From assembly GCA_002709185.1 (NCBI GenBank), contig PAQB01000026.1, forward strand, positions 1-16,511: a stretch of DNA of 16,511 nucleotides, in the 5' to 3' direction. The notes below the pieces were generated by a model, which was given only the letters and a program-made list of their open reading frames with translations, did not search any database and was not told the origin of the DNA. The first letter of the stretch is position 1. Every line of letters begins with the position of its first letter. The DNA is from Flavobacteriaceae bacterium (GTDB taxonomy: Bacteria; Bacteroidota; Bacteroidia; Flavobacteriales; Flavobacteriaceae). Made by a program: the position numbers and the translations under genes. This document shows, piece after piece, positions 11,773 to 16,511 of this stretch.

Positions 11773-12705
11773 TTAATCTAACTTTGACTGATTCCAAAGT
11801 TCATTATGCCTAAAGATTTTTCCTTCCGCATTAAACCCATGGTTAAACAAAACCGGAATTACAGTCACCTTATTGTCGGACTTACGTGTCAAGGAGACAC
11901 GCCACCAAGACTGAACGTAGTTGCGTTGTGAATCAAATTCATAATATTTAATCCAAACACAGTCAAAGCTGTTTACCGAATAGGACTCTAAAAATTCCAT
12001 TTGAAGGGCCTTAAAATCAGCTTTTGATAATGGATCATTGCCCCAGTCATTAAACAAACCATCAAACTGTGCATTGTCGGCAAAAGCTTCGTAAAACGCA
12101 TCCATATCGTTAAACTCAATGGCGTGCAGGGCTTTTCTAACCGTGTTGATGTTTGGATGGTGGGAATAAATTTGACCATCTTTTAGTTCTCTTTGGCTTC
12201 TCCAGCTTTCAGCAAAAGGCATTTGATTTTGATAAATTCGCAAGAACACGATTTTACCGTCGGAAGTGACGCCATATTGCGCATGTCTTGGTTGTGAAAA
12301 TTTAACCCCTGTAGTGCCGCCGATCCCGGTGATTTTTTCCCATGCATACACCCAGGTTAAATTACTGAAGGTGTCATCTTTATATTCTACTGCGTCTGGG
12401 TAGCCGTTTTTGGTGTGGTTTAAAGTAAAGTAACGGTTGTAAGTTTGCCAATTTGCAATATTTTGAAGAAACGCTGCTTTGGTCGTTGCCTCTGCATCCT
12501 TGTTCATGTTGTCGCCACTAAAACCCTTAAAGTCGTCTGCAATCAGACTTGCTAATTTTAAAGAGTCTTTTGCATTGACGGCCGCATACATTTGATTGAT
12601 CACATCAATTGCAGGGTGCTCGATGTACATGGTACCATTTTTCTTTTTTTGAGCAGACAGCAATAAACAAAGTGTTAAGGCTGCTAATGTTAATTTGGTT
12701 TTCAT
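11773..12705 (-). CDS. Secreted NTF2/SnoaL-like protein, tandem paralogue 1
   Basis: A 310-residue exported protein. Residues 1-19 form a signal peptide (MKTKLTLAALTLCLLLSAQ). The mature part looks like two NTF2/SnoaL-type units, each opening with a helix pattern of the kind INQMYAAVNAKDSLKLASLIADD (about 36-58) or VRKALHAIEFNDMDAFYEAF (about 189-208), then Trp- and Tyr-rich strands. SnoaL-like folds are used for many jobs, from isomerases to binding domains. I see no catalytic signature, so the function is unknown. Downstream paralogue of the gene at 12817, with which it shares upstream and signal-peptide DNA. It ends at the bidirectional terminator. Confidence 0.8.
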   Translation of the reverse strand: MKTKLTLAALTLCLLLSAQKKKNGTMYIEHPAIDVINQMYAAVNAKDSLKLASLIADDFKGFSGDNMNKDAEATTKAAFLQNIANWQTYNRYFTLNHTKNGYPDAVEYKDDTFSNLTWVYAWEKITGIGGTTGVKFSQPRHAQYGVTSDGKIVFLRIYQNQMPFAESWRSQRELKDGQIYSHHPNINTVRKALHAIEFNDMDAFYEAFADNAQFDGLFNDWGNDPLSKADFKALQMEFLESYSVNSFDCVWIKYYEFDSQRNYVQSWWRVSLTRKSDNKVTVIPVLFNHGFNAEGKIFRHNELWNQSKLD

Positions 12706-12816: not shown

Positions 12817-13737
12817 TCAGTCCGGAAGTTGTGCGGGATTAAAATAGTAATCCTCTCTGGAGATCTCTCCTTTTTCATTAAATGCGTGTTGAATGTGCTG
12901 TTTAATGGTTGTTGTATTTCCAGATTTTTTATTTTTAAATTTCATATTCCACCAAGAGATTACAACACTGCCATCGCCCTCATAATCTAATACATCAGGA
13001 TAACCGCTTTCGTTAATTTCCAACAAATCAAAAACTTCCATGTAGCTGTTAAAATCCGCAAACTCCTCGTCTAATGTCTTGTATTCATTTAGGCCTGAAT
13101 TCATGACATCATAAAAGGCGGTAGATGCTGTGTAGTGGCTTTTTATTTCGTCAACGTCTTTTGTGAGGTAAGCTTGCATGAGAAGTCGAACTTTTGAAAC
13201 CAGGGGGTGATCCTTATAGATAACCCCGTTTTTTGTGGTATCATAGGCATCGTATGCTTTATTCCAAAGCACTTGGTCATCCATGATGTTCACCGATAAA
13301 ATTTTACCGTTTTCGCCAACTCTAAAACTTGCGTGGCGTGGCATGTTTAATGAAACGCCAGTGTTTTTATCGTAACCTGTCATCCAGGTGTAGGTCATGA
13401 CGTCCAGAACATTGTCTTTCTTATATTCAAAAGCGTCTGGATAAGAGCCGCCATAATGTTTGATTTCAAAATTTTCAATGTTTTTACTCAGATAGTTTGA
13501 TCGGCCTAAAAGCTGCTTTAAGGTCCCCGGTTTTTCTCGCATTGTTGAATTTCTCCATTTAAAGTCATCCGAAACAAGGCTTTTAATTTTTTCGAGATCA
13601 CCTGCTACAAAAGCCGTGTTAAATTCCTCCACAGCCTCCATTGCTGGATGTTCTATGTAAATGGTACCATTTTTCTTTTTTTGTGCAGACAGTACCAAAC
13701 AAAGTGTTAATGCTGCTAATGTTAATTTGGTTTTCAT
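12817..13737 (-). CDS. Secreted NTF2/SnoaL-like protein, tandem paralogue 2
   Basis: A 306-residue exported protein with the signal peptide MKTKLTLAALTLCLVLSAQ, almost identical to that of its neighbour, followed by the shared KKKNGT-YIEHPA segment. Beyond about residue 35 similarity falls to scattered positions (for example GYPD or SYPDAFEYK, MPRHA or QPRHA, and ISWWNM or QSWWRV), enough to show common descent. Two NTF2-like units are suggested, as in paralogue 1. Its own terminator separates it from paralogue 1. It is the last apparently resident gene before the recombinase-repeat region, whose first repeat begins 106 nt upstream of its start. Confidence 0.8.
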   Translation of the reverse strand: MKTKLTLAALTLCLVLSAQKKKNGTIYIEHPAMEAVEEFNTAFVAGDLEKIKSLVSDDFKWRNSTMREKPGTLKQLLGRSNYLSKNIENFEIKHYGGSYPDAFEYKKDNVLDVMTYTWMTGYDKNTGVSLNMPRHASFRVGENGKILSVNIMDDQVLWNKAYDAYDTTKNGVIYKDHPLVSKVRLLMQAYLTKDVDEIKSHYTASTAFYDVMNSGLNEYKTLDEEFADFNSYMEVFDLLEINESGYPDVLDYEGDGSVVISWWNMKFKNKKSGNTTTIKQHIQHAFNEKGEISREDYYFNPAQLPD

Positions 13738-13800
13738 AAAGTAATAATTTGATTGATTAAATTAATTTTAAAGAGCAACTAATATAGGGATTAAATTTTA
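13644..13800 (-). repeat. Duplicated leader and signal-peptide segment, copy 2
   Basis: Counterpart of 12612-12769, covering the start of the gene at 12817-13737 and its upstream DNA. The similarity ends near 13800. The stretch 13801-13842 that follows has no gene and no match elsewhere in the window; it is the likely junction between resident DNA and the repeat region. Confidence 0.85.
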
Positions 13801-13842
13801 AATCGTTTTGGCAGCGAAAGCGGGTTCATTGCCTCCTTATTA

Positions 13843-13926
13843 TCATCAATTAATTTAAGTTTAACCTACTTAAGAGGTTTAGAAATAGCAGAATTAAAAG
13901 AAGAAGATATGCCAATGGTTTCCTAA
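13843..13926 (+). repeat. Detached copy A of the recombinase-gene 3' end (attachment-site candidate)
   Basis: These 84 nt read as the last 28 codons of the recombinase at 15309-16370: SSINLSLTYLRGLE, then IAELKEEDMPMV, plus one extra Ser and TAA. Differences from the gene's own end are nearly all synonymous. The core AACCTACTTAAGAGGTT (13863-13879) is unchanged. No recombinase coding sequence precedes it, as similarity begins abruptly at TCATCA. Confidence 0.92.
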
Positions 13927-14063
13927 ATAAAAAAGTCAAGAATTAAATTACCTATAGTCATTCCTACAGCGACAAAGATGAAAGACCAAAAACATTTTTC
14001 AGCCAATGTTGCATCGTCTTTCCATTGTCCCCATTTATTTTTCATTGGATTTCGTAATTTCAT
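13923..14063 (-). CDS. 46-residue single-helix membrane protein in a short cassette, unknown function
   Basis: A small gene from ATG 14063 to TAG 13923-13925, fitting exactly between repeats A and B. The N-terminal half is basic and tryptophan-containing (MKLRNPMKNKWGQWKDD); the C-terminal half is one membrane helix (SFIFVAVGMTIGNLILDFF). Its stop overlaps the stop codon of repeat A on the other strand. I do not recognise a family. Being the sole gene of a 227-nt unit (core to core) marks it as probable cargo. Confidence 0.65.
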   Translation of the reverse strand: MKLRNPMKNKWGQWKDDATLAEKCFWSFIFVAVGMTIGNLILDFFI

Positions 14064-14078
14064 AGCCTAAATATAAGA

Positions 14079-14150
14079 AATGTATCTCTAACCTACTTAA
14101 GAGGTTTGGAAATAGCAGAACTAAAAGAGGAAGATATGCCTATGGTTTAG
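14079..14150 (+). repeat. Detached copy B of the recombinase-gene 3' end (attachment-site candidate)
   Basis: These 72 nt read NVSLTYLRGLE, then IAELKEEDMPMV and TAG, identical in protein to the recombinase end but with synonymous changes (for example TCT CTA for AGT TTA, and GAG for GAA). The core AACCTACTTAAGAGGTT is at 14090-14106, unchanged. Similarity starts abruptly at AAT; upstream is the promoter side of the 46-residue cargo gene. Confidence 0.92.
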
Positions 14151-14156
14151 GATTAA

Positions 14157-14441
14157 TTAATGTTGTTTTTTATGACAAGATGCGCAAAGGGATATTAGCC
14201 ATTTAATAGGTTCTTTTCCTATTTTGTATTTAGCATATCTTAGGTGATGAACTTGAGTTGCTTTATTGCCGCAATATTGACAAGTCCAATTATCCCTTCT
14301 CAAAACGACATACCTCTTTCTTTTCCAAGCATCTGACTTAAGATACTCCCTATATTTCCGAGTCCTGTCTGCTGACCAAATATGTCCCCCTACATATTTC
14401 CCAAATATTGCTTGAGTAAATAATTTGCTGAAAAAACCCAT
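14157..14441 (-). CDS. HNH endonuclease domain protein
   Basis: A 94-residue protein with a complete HNH/treble-clef zinc nuclease motif: C54-x2-C57 (CQYCGN), the catalytic H65-H66 (QVHHLRY), and C86-x2-C89-H90 (CASCHKKQ). The preceding segment YLKSDAWKRKRYVVLRRDNW is the typical lead-in of phage- and element-borne HNH proteins. It could nick or cut DNA, or act in defence or mobility; the target is unknown. It ends 6 nt after repeat B and lies 25 nt downstream of the secreted-protein gene on the same strand, so the two may form one cargo transcript. Confidence 0.88.
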   Translation of the reverse strand: MGFFSKLFTQAIFGKYVGGHIWSADRTRKYREYLKSDAWKRKRYVVLRRDNWTCQYCGNKATQVHHLRYAKYKIGKEPIKWLISLCASCHKKQH

Positions 14442-14466
14442 ACTGTAATTCCTTTATGGCTAAATT

Positions 14467-14928
14467 TTATTTATCAGGAAAATGTACAATGATTCCATTG
14501 TCTTCCTCAATAACAAATCCGATTTTTCCTTTGTATGAGGATTCAGGGCAACTATAAGTTACATAATCAGTGCCACCAAAGTTGACAATTTTATGATAAC
14601 TACATTTTTCTTTTACCTCGTTGAGAATTAAATCATAATCACTTTTATCATTTACACCCAAGAAAGATGACCTTGAAAACTGAAAAAAGAAAGAATCACC
14701 TTTAGGGTCATAATAAAGCCATTTGGTAGATTTATTCCCTTCAATAGAATCTCTTTGAATATTAAATCCATATGTAATTAATTCGCCTTCATCACTATTA
14801 TCAATCTCATAGTTATTCTCAATAGCAACTTTCTTAAACATTTCTGCAGAGTTAATAGACATTATGTCTTTATATGTTTGACTATATGAGAATAATGGAA
14901 TAAACAGTAATAAAAGCAACTTTTTCAT
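14467..14928 (-). CDS. Secreted hypothetical protein, cassette cargo
   Basis: A 153-residue protein with a clear signal peptide (MKKLLLLLFIPLFSYSQ, cleavage after about residue 16). The mature part is hydrophilic and beta-rich with two cysteines (in EKCSYHK and YSCPES) that could form a disulfide. I do not recognise a family. It lacks the lipobox cysteine of a lipoprotein. It sits upstream of the HNH gene, with AT-rich DNA on its 5' side, and is opposite in strand to the recombinase. A role in the HNH gene's function is not implied by its sequence. Confidence 0.75.
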   Translation of the reverse strand: MKKLLLLLFIPLFSYSQTYKDIMSINSAEMFKKVAIENNYEIDNSDEGELITYGFNIQRDSIEGNKSTKWLYYDPKGDSFFFQFSRSSFLGVNDKSDYDLILNEVKEKCSYHKIVNFGGTDYVTYSCPESSYKGKIGFVIEEDNGIIVHFPDK

Positions 14929-15065
14929 AGTATATCAAAAGTAAAATTATTTTTCGAGTTTTCAATAAAATGACAATAACTTACCCCTTAAATACTTGAT
15001 TATTAAAAATTTAACCTGTAACTTTACAACTATCTTCGCTATTAAGTTGTACGTTAACTTGTCAC

Positions 15066-15098
15066 TTTTGGCGGTGCCACAAGCAACGCCGCCTAAAA
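15066..15098. repeat. GC-rich bulged hairpin
   Basis: TTTTGGCGG (15066-15074) pairs with CCGCC plus AAAA (15089-15098) except for one bulged T at 15094; the loop is 14 nt. It is a GC-rich island in very AT-rich DNA. A bulged base on a hairpin recalls folded integron recombination sites, but I see no flanking heptamers that match those. Confidence 0.4.
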
Positions 15099-15155
15099 CA
15101 AATTGCAAAAAACTTATTGTTGTATTTAAACGTATTATACAAATATCTGTGTAAT

Positions 15156-15181
15156 AAAAAAGCCCTACATCTCTGTAAAGC
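15156..15181 (-). terminator. Terminator of the tRNA-Asn remnant
   Basis: Minus-strand stem GCTTTACA/TGTAGGGC (15174-15181 with 15162-15169, two G-T pairs) with loop GAGA is followed by T6 (15161-15156). It begins 5 nt after the tRNA discriminator base, so the native 3' flank of a tRNA gene came along with the remnant. Confidence 0.75.
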
Positions 15182-15186
15182 TTTTG

Positions 15187-15253
15187 CTCCTCCTCTTGGG
15201 CTCGAACCAAGGACCCTCTGATTAACAGTCAGATGCTCTAACCAACTGAGCTA
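15187..15253 (-). pseudogene. tRNA-Asn(GTT) lacking its 5' acceptor strand
   Basis: Positions 8 to 73 of a tRNA-Asn are intact. These are the D-arm (GCTC/GAGC), the anticodon stem TCTGA/TCAGA with loop CTGTTAA (anticodon GTT), the T-arm CTTGG-TTCGAGC-CCAAG, the 3' acceptor AGGAGGA and discriminator G. The seven bases that should be TCCTCCT are instead AT-rich and unpaired (15254-15260), so no acceptor stem forms and the gene should be inactive. The break faces the recombinase, whose start is 55 nt away. This is the usual look of an attachment-site junction, in which the 3' part of a tRNA is duplicated by an element; the intact tRNA would lie elsewhere. Confidence 0.85.
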
Positions 15254-15308
15254 TTGATTACCAGTGCCTTGTACAGACAATTAAGTTTAACTGTCTAAGC
15301 ACTGTCAA

Positions 15309-16370
15309 ATGACACTACAATTTCCTAAAGTTCACACTGATTCTTTAAACAAAGTATTTGTATCCTTTTACATTGGTGGTAAGAGATACAGACTTTATAA
15401 TGGTAAAAGAATCAACTCAACCACAGACCCTAATTCCTATCCACTTGATCAAAGACTATCCATTGCTAAAGTTCTAGCTGCTGAGATTTATAGCTACCTT
15501 TTAAATGGTGATGTTTTGTTGTCCTACAGATCTTCAAATGTGGTTAGTGGTAAGCTCTCAGACATTGATTATATCAAACAGGCATTAGACTCAAAACTAG
15601 CTGGTGATTATTCTTCAAAATACAAGGCTATGTTACAGTTTAGTTTTGACTGTTTAAAGCAAGAAATTGGATCCTCAAAACTCTCTGTTAGAGGGCTCAA
15701 AAATATTCTTTCAAGGTATTGCTCTGGAGTTTCTCACAACACCCTTAAAAGGCATCTAAAAGTGCTTATAAATGAGGCTGCATCCCTAGGTTTGGAGGGC
15801 AATCCAATGACTGAAATAAAAAGTAAGAAATCCAAGGCTGTTTTGCACAAACCTTTTGATGATATTGCTGCTGTACTAGAGGATATAAAAGCTTTTAATA
15901 AACACCTTCATTTATGTTGTTTGCTGACTTATGGTTGCTTATTAAGACCACATAGAGAAGTGAGGGAATTGACATGGGGAGATTTCTCTAATGACTTAAG
16001 CTATATTACACTTTCTGGGTTTAGAAATAAGTCAGGTAGAAACAGGATTGTACCAGTCCCAAGATTTATAAAATCCTACTTACATCCAAAAGGTTTATAT
16101 GATAATATCTTTACTGGGGAGCAGTGGAGCAGAAATCCAGACTATTTCAAAACGCTTTGGAGCAGATATAAGAAACAAACTAAGCTTCTTAAACAAGGAC
16201 AAACACTCTACTCTTTTAGACACTCTGGGGCTATAGAAATCTTCAAGCGTACAGGCTCAATAACCAAGTTACAGAAAGCTATGGGGCATTCGTCAATAAA
16301 CGTAAGTTTAACCTACTTAAGAGGTTTAGAAATAGCAGAATTGAAGGAAGAAGATATGCCTATGGTTTAG
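15309..16370 (+). CDS. Tyrosine recombinase / integrase whose 3' end is repeated in the region
   Basis: A 353-residue site-specific recombinase. Residues about 85-180 are a core-binding (SAM-like) domain and 185-350 the catalytic domain. Catalytic residues are R213 (CLLRPHREVREL), K241 (in RNKSGRN), R304, H327 (MGHSS) and nucleophile Y336 (LTYLRG). The first box-II histidine is replaced by Y301 (YSFRH), a change tolerated in some family members. The last 27 codons occur as detached copies at 13843-13926 and 14079-14150, and a perfect inverted repeat with a 7-bp spacer overlaps the Y336 codon. The gene is intact. It lies next to a broken tRNA-Asn and is convergent with opposite-strand cargo on its right. 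It probably drives integration and excision of this region. Confidence 0.93.
   Translation: MTLQFPKVHTDSLNKVFVSFYIGGKRYRLYNGKRINSTTDPNSYPLDQRLSIAKVLAAEIYSYLLNGDVLLSYRSSNVVSGKLSDIDYIKQALDSKLAGDYSSKYKAMLQFSFDCLKQEIGSSKLSVRGLKNILSRYCSGVSHNTLKRHLKVLINEAASLGLEGNPMTEIKSKKSKAVLHKPFDDIAAVLEDIKAFNKHLHLCCLLTYGCLLRPHREVRELTWGDFSNDLSYITLSGFRNKSGRNRIVPVPRFIKSYLHPKGLYDNIFTGEQWSRNPDYFKTLWSRYKKQTKLLKQGQTLYSFRHSGAIEIFKRTGSITKLQKAMGHSSINVSLTYLRGLEIAELKEEDMPMV
16290..16370 (+). repeat. Copy C of the 3'-end repeat, within the intact recombinase gene
   Basis: The part of the recombinase gene shared with copies A and B. The core AACCTACTTAAGAGGTT lies at 16310-16326, with arms AACCT and AGGTT and spacer ACTTAAG. 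The TAC of Y336 is at 16314-16316, so the first arm and spacer cover the nucleophile codon. Cargo on the other strand begins right after the stop codon. Confidence 0.9.
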
Positions 16371-16511
16371 TTATCGCCTAACGTACCCACCAATAGATTC
16401 TCTGTATTCTATTTCAAACTCATTTTCTTTCGTAAACTTTTTGAATTCATCTGTTGCATTACCTATTGTTAAAAATGATTCTATTTCAAAGATTTCAAAA
16501 AATCTATTGAA
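16371..16511 (-). CDS. C-terminal part of an unidentified cargo gene
   Basis: An open frame runs in from the right edge and ends at TAA (16371-16373), directly abutting the recombinase stop codon. The visible 46 residues are acidic and aromatic (for example FFEIFEIESFL and NEFEIEYRESIGGYV) and end in RR. No family recognised. Its position mirrors those of the 46-residue gene after repeat A and the HNH gene after repeat B, which supports it as a third cargo unit. Confidence 0.7.
   Translation of the reverse strand, partial: FNRFFEIFEIESFLTIGNATDEFKKFTKENEFEIEYRESIGGYVRR

Follow-up and report, generated by a model that had tools for sequence, protein, structure and literature searches.

Results

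The window, by which we mean the whole 16,511-nt stretch of flavobacterial DNA analysed here, carries near its right end three copies of the 3′ end of a recombinase gene, all on the plus strand, which a repeat search grouped into one 79-nt family starting at 13843, 14070, and 16290. They are 227 and 2,220 nt apart, as the earlier note had described, are 81–91% identical to the reference copy, and contain GATATGCC in register (at 13906, 14133, and 16353). Copies A (13843..13926; GATATGCC at 13906–13913) and B (14070..14150; GATATGCC at 14133–14140) are without an integrase body, A reaching further left in the tail model (from position 13) than B (from position 21). Copy C (16290..16370) is the end of an intact tyrosine recombinase gene of 353 aa (15309..16370, plus strand; PF00589), in which GATATGCC (16353–16360) encodes D349-M350-P351 and the nucleophile of which we take, from the position of the motif, to be Tyr336 (codon 16314–16316).

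The cargo between these copies is encoded on the minus strand, as had been noted before. The 227-nt unit A–B holds a 46-aa ORF (13923..14063), and unit B–C contains, besides the integrase gene, ORFs for a 94-aa HNH protein (14157..14441; Pfam PF01844) and a 153-aa protein (14467..14928), the latter of which matched no Pfam or NCBIfam profile and has an N-terminus that, in our reading, looks like a signal peptide. The third unit, which the earlier note had placed after the intact gene, does begin there with a minus-strand ORF that runs out of the window (16371..16511, 46 aa visible). A tRNA-His (anticodon atg) called by ARAGORN at 14136–14230, overlapping tail B, is absent from the Rfam list and is probably a false call.

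Copy A forms the left edge of the array and adjoins a SnoaL-like gene. Two such genes stand in tandem (11773–12705 and 12817–13737), and a 166-nt repeat (89%) is common to their 5′ ends. In another genome (G008, locus L119), a similar SnoaL gene has an intact tRNA-Ala after it and lacks a tail, whereas the window has a tail at that place (13797–13843); in G006, the 74 kb around the corresponding place contain a tRNA-Asn and no tRNA-Ala. This difference possibly reflects a rearrangement between two islands.

A fragment of the 3′ end of a tRNA gene lies upstream of the integrase on the minus strand (15185..15253; Rfam RF00005 match at 15195–15253, model positions 8–63 of 71, 48.4 bits), a setting that adds to the earlier note. 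It is assigned to tRNA-Asn by a 99% match of 15156–15253 to a G006 stretch containing the intact tRNA-Asn; in that genome, a similar fragment and integrase are found with the intact tRNA-Asn 12.7 kb further on. Within the family, an antisense T-loop motif precedes 48 of 68 integrases by no more than 220 nt, compared with a frequency of 2.7% in random windows. Of 69 integrases, 20 are followed within 12 kb by an intact antisense tRNA, and 19 of these 20 have a matching upstream fragment (best matches of 47–70 nt at 81–100%). The arrangement of a tRNA island, with a 3′ fragment at the integrase and an intact tRNA at the far end, is thus found in the family, while the window shows the fragment and its far end lies outside the view. 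Because the integrase adjoins a tRNA 3′ fragment, often with an intact tRNA downstream, we interpret these loci as tRNA-targeted islands with a cassette array inside. A likeness between the tail core and the tRNA D-arm, seen by eye, is not claimed, since a rough manual estimate that takes all offsets into account puts it close to chance.

A scan of genome contigs yielded 141 stretches encoding a relative of the integrase, and 79 loci were retained. Tail DNA was present in 12 of 60 relatives and, with two candidates scored per genome, in 34 of 397 genomes of the family. The search of related genomes for tails and the listing of the DNA between them, which the earlier note had proposed, gave 288 tails in 139 related loci, or 276 once exact duplicates were removed, with mostly opposite-strand cargo. 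Among the 276 tails, 78 belong to a near-complete integrase (at least 250 aa), 13 to a partial one (60–249 aa), and 185 are attached to less than 60 aa of integrase and are called bodiless here; 23 of the 185 extend to the left limit of the tail model, and these may include a shorter stretch of integrase. A degenerate tail pattern had 0 matches in viral contigs, and the integrase protein as a query found no match in phage and plasmid records.

For 30 of 68 integrases, the locus contained a further copy of the last 80 nt; in the control, this held for 18 of 547 other ORFs of at least 300 aa, and, thus, the recurrence of the tail exceeds chance. The corresponding values were 2/68 for integrase 5′ ends and 1/68 for the middles. 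When the 72 loci containing a full integrase were searched, 84 extra copies of the last 80 nt were present in 34 loci; windows placed 40 and 80 nt further into the gene produced 25 copies in 16 loci and 5 in 5, respectively, and windows still further in (at least 120 nt before the stop) recurred in at most 2. The integrase usually heads the array: of the 80 bodiless tails in loci that have a single near-complete integrase, 61 follow it and 11 precede it, in both cases with its orientation, and 8 are inverted. The fetched stretches of 42 of the 82 loci with bodiless tails contained no integrase tail, a figure that is an upper bound on integrase-less arrays because these stretches are short. Tails occur at several places in the single 2.0-Mb contig of G006, which makes the mis-assembly of fragments an unlikely cause.

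Two further features of individual loci were observed. Many bodiless tails of L040, L061, L071, and L073 match the integrase only from approximately tail position 56–64 onward, their left parts being unlike the integrase and in part resembling one another, and tails inverted relative to the integrase occur in L063, L067, L068, and L089.

Differences between bodiless tails and the nearest integrase tail follow the codon frame. In the 93 of 128 candidate tails used (35 were excluded as out of register or less than 70% alike), they numbered 82, 43, and 159 at the three codon positions; 137 codons differed synonymously and 105 non-synonymously (18% of random changes are synonymous), and an in-frame stop was present in 1 of the 93. 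One serine codon is AGY or TCN in 89 of 105 bodiless tails (approximately 10% expected), and both types occur within 13 of 41 loci. This coding-type variation fits tails having passed through integrase genes, and part of it could be inherited from integrase ancestors.

At positions 46–83, tails resemble the integrase of their own locus more closely than random integrases (0.772 vs 0.683; 0 of 2000 permutations), while the likeness of the left part (20–45) is weak and was reached by 38 of 2000 permutations. The tail may also differ between integrases with nearly identical bodies, as in L021 vs L022 and L052. Across 16 integrase pairs with a body identity of at least 0.90, the third-position mismatch is 0.18 over the 100 nt that precede the tail model and 0.26–0.35 in parts of the tail, but 0.17 at positions 55–63 and 0.08 at 76–84.

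Among 141 tail-to-tail intervals, ten pairs were alike over at least 85% of both members (92.6–99.6% identity), representing six distinct units, two of which give three pairs each. Neither 600-nt flank was alike in seven of the ten pairs; in the remaining three, the left flank was unlike and the right too short for comparison (L078/L154), a 60-nt match was present at the left and the right was again too short (L078/L027), or both units followed closely related integrases and the right flank was unlike (L052/L023). The 227-nt unit of the window resembles the last unit of a G006 array (94.5% over 145 nt), its 46-aa ORF being open in both with four synonymous and four non-synonymous codon changes, and a 530-nt unit is 99.6% identical in two G006 arrays, one beside a tRNA-His gene and the other beside tRNA-Met. 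That the array is built on the integrase's own 3′ end, as the earlier note had proposed, is borne out by such whole units in different surroundings.

At their left ends, all ten pairs showed 3–12 nt differences in tail positions 46–75 and few in 84–96, and positions 76–83 (GATATGCC) were identical in nine, an indel upsetting the count in the tenth (L067/L159). Since GATATGCC is conserved in general, the evidence for the left border rests on positions 84–96; comparison of the units suggests that they begin at or close to GATATGCC (codons D-M-P), the high conservation of which prevents an exact placement of the crossover. L067/L159 is the only pair to narrow the crossover at both ends, with both breaks falling at approximately 76–80 when aligned. 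An inverted repeat in copy C, AACCT-ACTTAAG-AGGTT (16310..16326, plus strand), was considered as the crossover point and is not favoured, given that the shared units begin at GATATGCC or in its vicinity. The agreement is poorer at right ends, where the tail has diverged further than the cargo in eight of the ten pairs; it stays with the cargo in window/L102 and L067/L159 and not clearly in the other eight.

Close integrase proteins have D-M-P in common and vary after it. Among the 40 close homologues listed, two are truncated, and the 38 complete proteins comprise 18 with MV after DMP, one ending in DTPMV, and 19 with other ends, such as VMILDNDY and GALMQKKWL. The integrase of the window and its G006 relative are 94% identical as proteins, and their DNA alignment extends from the tRNA fragment to 2 nt beyond GATATGCC, where it ends. 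L087 and L089 have 4 kb of chromosome in common (93.4%) and share the tRNA fragment and integrase (96.2%), and further downstream their resemblance is confined to the tail region and some short stretches. In L089, an additional 1.25 kb separates the chromosome from the tRNA fragment. L069 and L085 have a common chromosome with integrases only about 76% alike and do not represent a clean same-locus case. At a unit border, the change affects mainly the sequence from D-M-P onward, though tails themselves are also exchanged. The earlier idea that every arriving circle brings a fresh gene body and strands the previous tail is not supported: of 198 tails lacking a near-complete integrase, 13 carry 60 aa or more of it.

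Of 129 intervals that end in a bodiless tail, with a median length of 868 nt, 100 have their longest ORF on the opposite strand, 13 have it on the same strand, and 16 contain none. The 144 cargo ORFs remaining once overlaps and repeats were removed, all of which were scanned, included 126 Pfam families, none with more than five members (SnoaL_2), and genes of the chromosome, such as DsbD in L169, are probably included in some intervals. A defence role of the cargo was considered and set aside, with five PADLOC families, one member each, among the 144 ORFs. The promoter-like motif CAAAnnTA, which matches a promoter element of Bacteroidota, occurs to the left of 42 of the 128 bodiless tails, compared with 7.1 in shuffles, and of 2 of the 78 integrase tails; in 28 of the 42, its spacing from the tail is one and the same. 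In L103 (reversed, approximately 11.7–15.1 kb), the G006 integrase related to that of the window is followed by plus-strand genes, which break the opposite-strand rule; the last of them reads, to us, like a DNA cytosine methyltransferase.

Discussion

The reading that we consider probable is that of an integron-like cassette array of separate origin inside a tRNA-targeted island, with the integrase's own tail as the acceptor site. The integrase would stand beside the 3′ fragment of the tRNA gene used for island integration, and the last 60–75 nt of its own gene would serve as the acceptor. Cassettes of approximately 0.2–4.5 kb, each ending in a copy of the tail and with cargo mostly read towards the integrase, would be gained and lost by recombination between tails with a border at or next to GATATGCC, new units entering after D-M-P. 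The integrase gene would be kept whole, only its last few residues being supplied by the neighbour. We infer the integrase as the acting enzyme, free circles as the moving form, the exact crossover, and the passing of tails between cassettes and integrases, whereas the tail arrays, recurrence of units in different surroundings, left unit border, coding-type variation of tails, and tRNA frame emerge from the comparison of loci.

The main rival explanation is that homologous or short-homology recombination between the 60–80-nt tails moves the units, with the integrase only inserting the island at tRNA genes and the tails being passive. Exchange points at right ends scattered over the tail are consistent with this, as is the exchange of tails between integrases of closely alike body revealed by the third-position mismatches of the 16 pairs; we nevertheless regard it as unlikely given the consistent left border of shared units in ten pairs, the origin of new repeats solely from the integrase 3′ end, and the fixed distance between tail and CAAAnnTA in 28 of 42 cases. 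It is very improbable that the arrays are debris of tandem island insertions, each tail being the remnant of a decayed full integrase, since, of 72 loci, no more than 2 contain repeats of gene windows located at least 120 nt before the stop, compared with 34 for the last 80 nt, whole units are shared with tails as borders, and one of 93 in-register tails has an in-frame stop, even though the islands are tRNA-targeted, 13 partial integrase bodies exist, 23 of 185 bodiless tails extend to the left edge of the model, and copy A extends further left than B.

An array in which the integrase tail acts as the acceptor resembles integrons in that a tyrosine recombinase heads a series of small units, each ending in a repeat resembling a recombination site, and in that arrays beside an integrase have units in common. 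The earlier note had suggested a similar build with a different recombinase and site, and both differences hold: by profile, the recombinase is not IntI (NCBIfam TIGR02249, 20.5 bits vs a cut-off of 265), and the site corresponds to the 3′ end of the recombinase gene. Moreover, unlike in integrons, cargo is mostly oriented towards the integrase, and some units have a promoter-like motif beside the tail. No attC-like folding signal was obtained with 60 bodiless tails spanning the site (mean fold z of 0.15 and −0.06 for the two strands vs mononucleotide shuffles).

Modules at Xer sites (pdif) depend on the host XerC and XerD. PMC7399989 describes them as small modules between short recombinase sites, which is similar to the present units, whereas the site proposed here belongs to the integrase gene of the island. 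Additive tRNA islands and tycheposons, for which tRNA genes are described as targets for added cassettes, together with repeats of the end of a tRNA gene (PMC4119200 and PMC10872708), also have an integrase beside a tRNA and variable cargo, but the present islands repeat the 3′ end of the integrase as their internal border instead of the end of the tRNA. The archaeal suicidal (SSV-type) integrases have their recombination target inside the integrase gene, as is proposed for the present system, and self-disrupting recombinases are stated there to be found only in archaea (PMC8371274). SSV genes are split on integration, whereas the gene in the array is intact and near-complete integrases carry whole tails; the gene would stay whole because the partner site has the same coding end. 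Our searches of an open-access literature collection without preprints brought up no description of such tail arrays.

For the assembly of gene-cassette arrays by a recombinase, integrons are the standard case. We lean, with some reserve, towards a form of gene capture independent of integrons in Flavobacteriaceae and their relatives, in which the last codons of a recombinase would be the attachment site, each cassette would hold a spare copy, site and enzyme would evolve as one sequence, and tails would move between cassettes and integrases. If this is true, a second design whose recombinase and site are unrelated to those of integrons would indicate that cassette capture arose more than once, the tail would provide a sequence handle for cataloguing a so far nameless cassette pool, and it would become directly testable how a recombinase can accommodate its target within its coding sequence and still keep the gene intact. 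Short flavobacterial gene units joined by recombinase tails and recurring in unrelated strings suggest integron-like gene shuffling from different parts.
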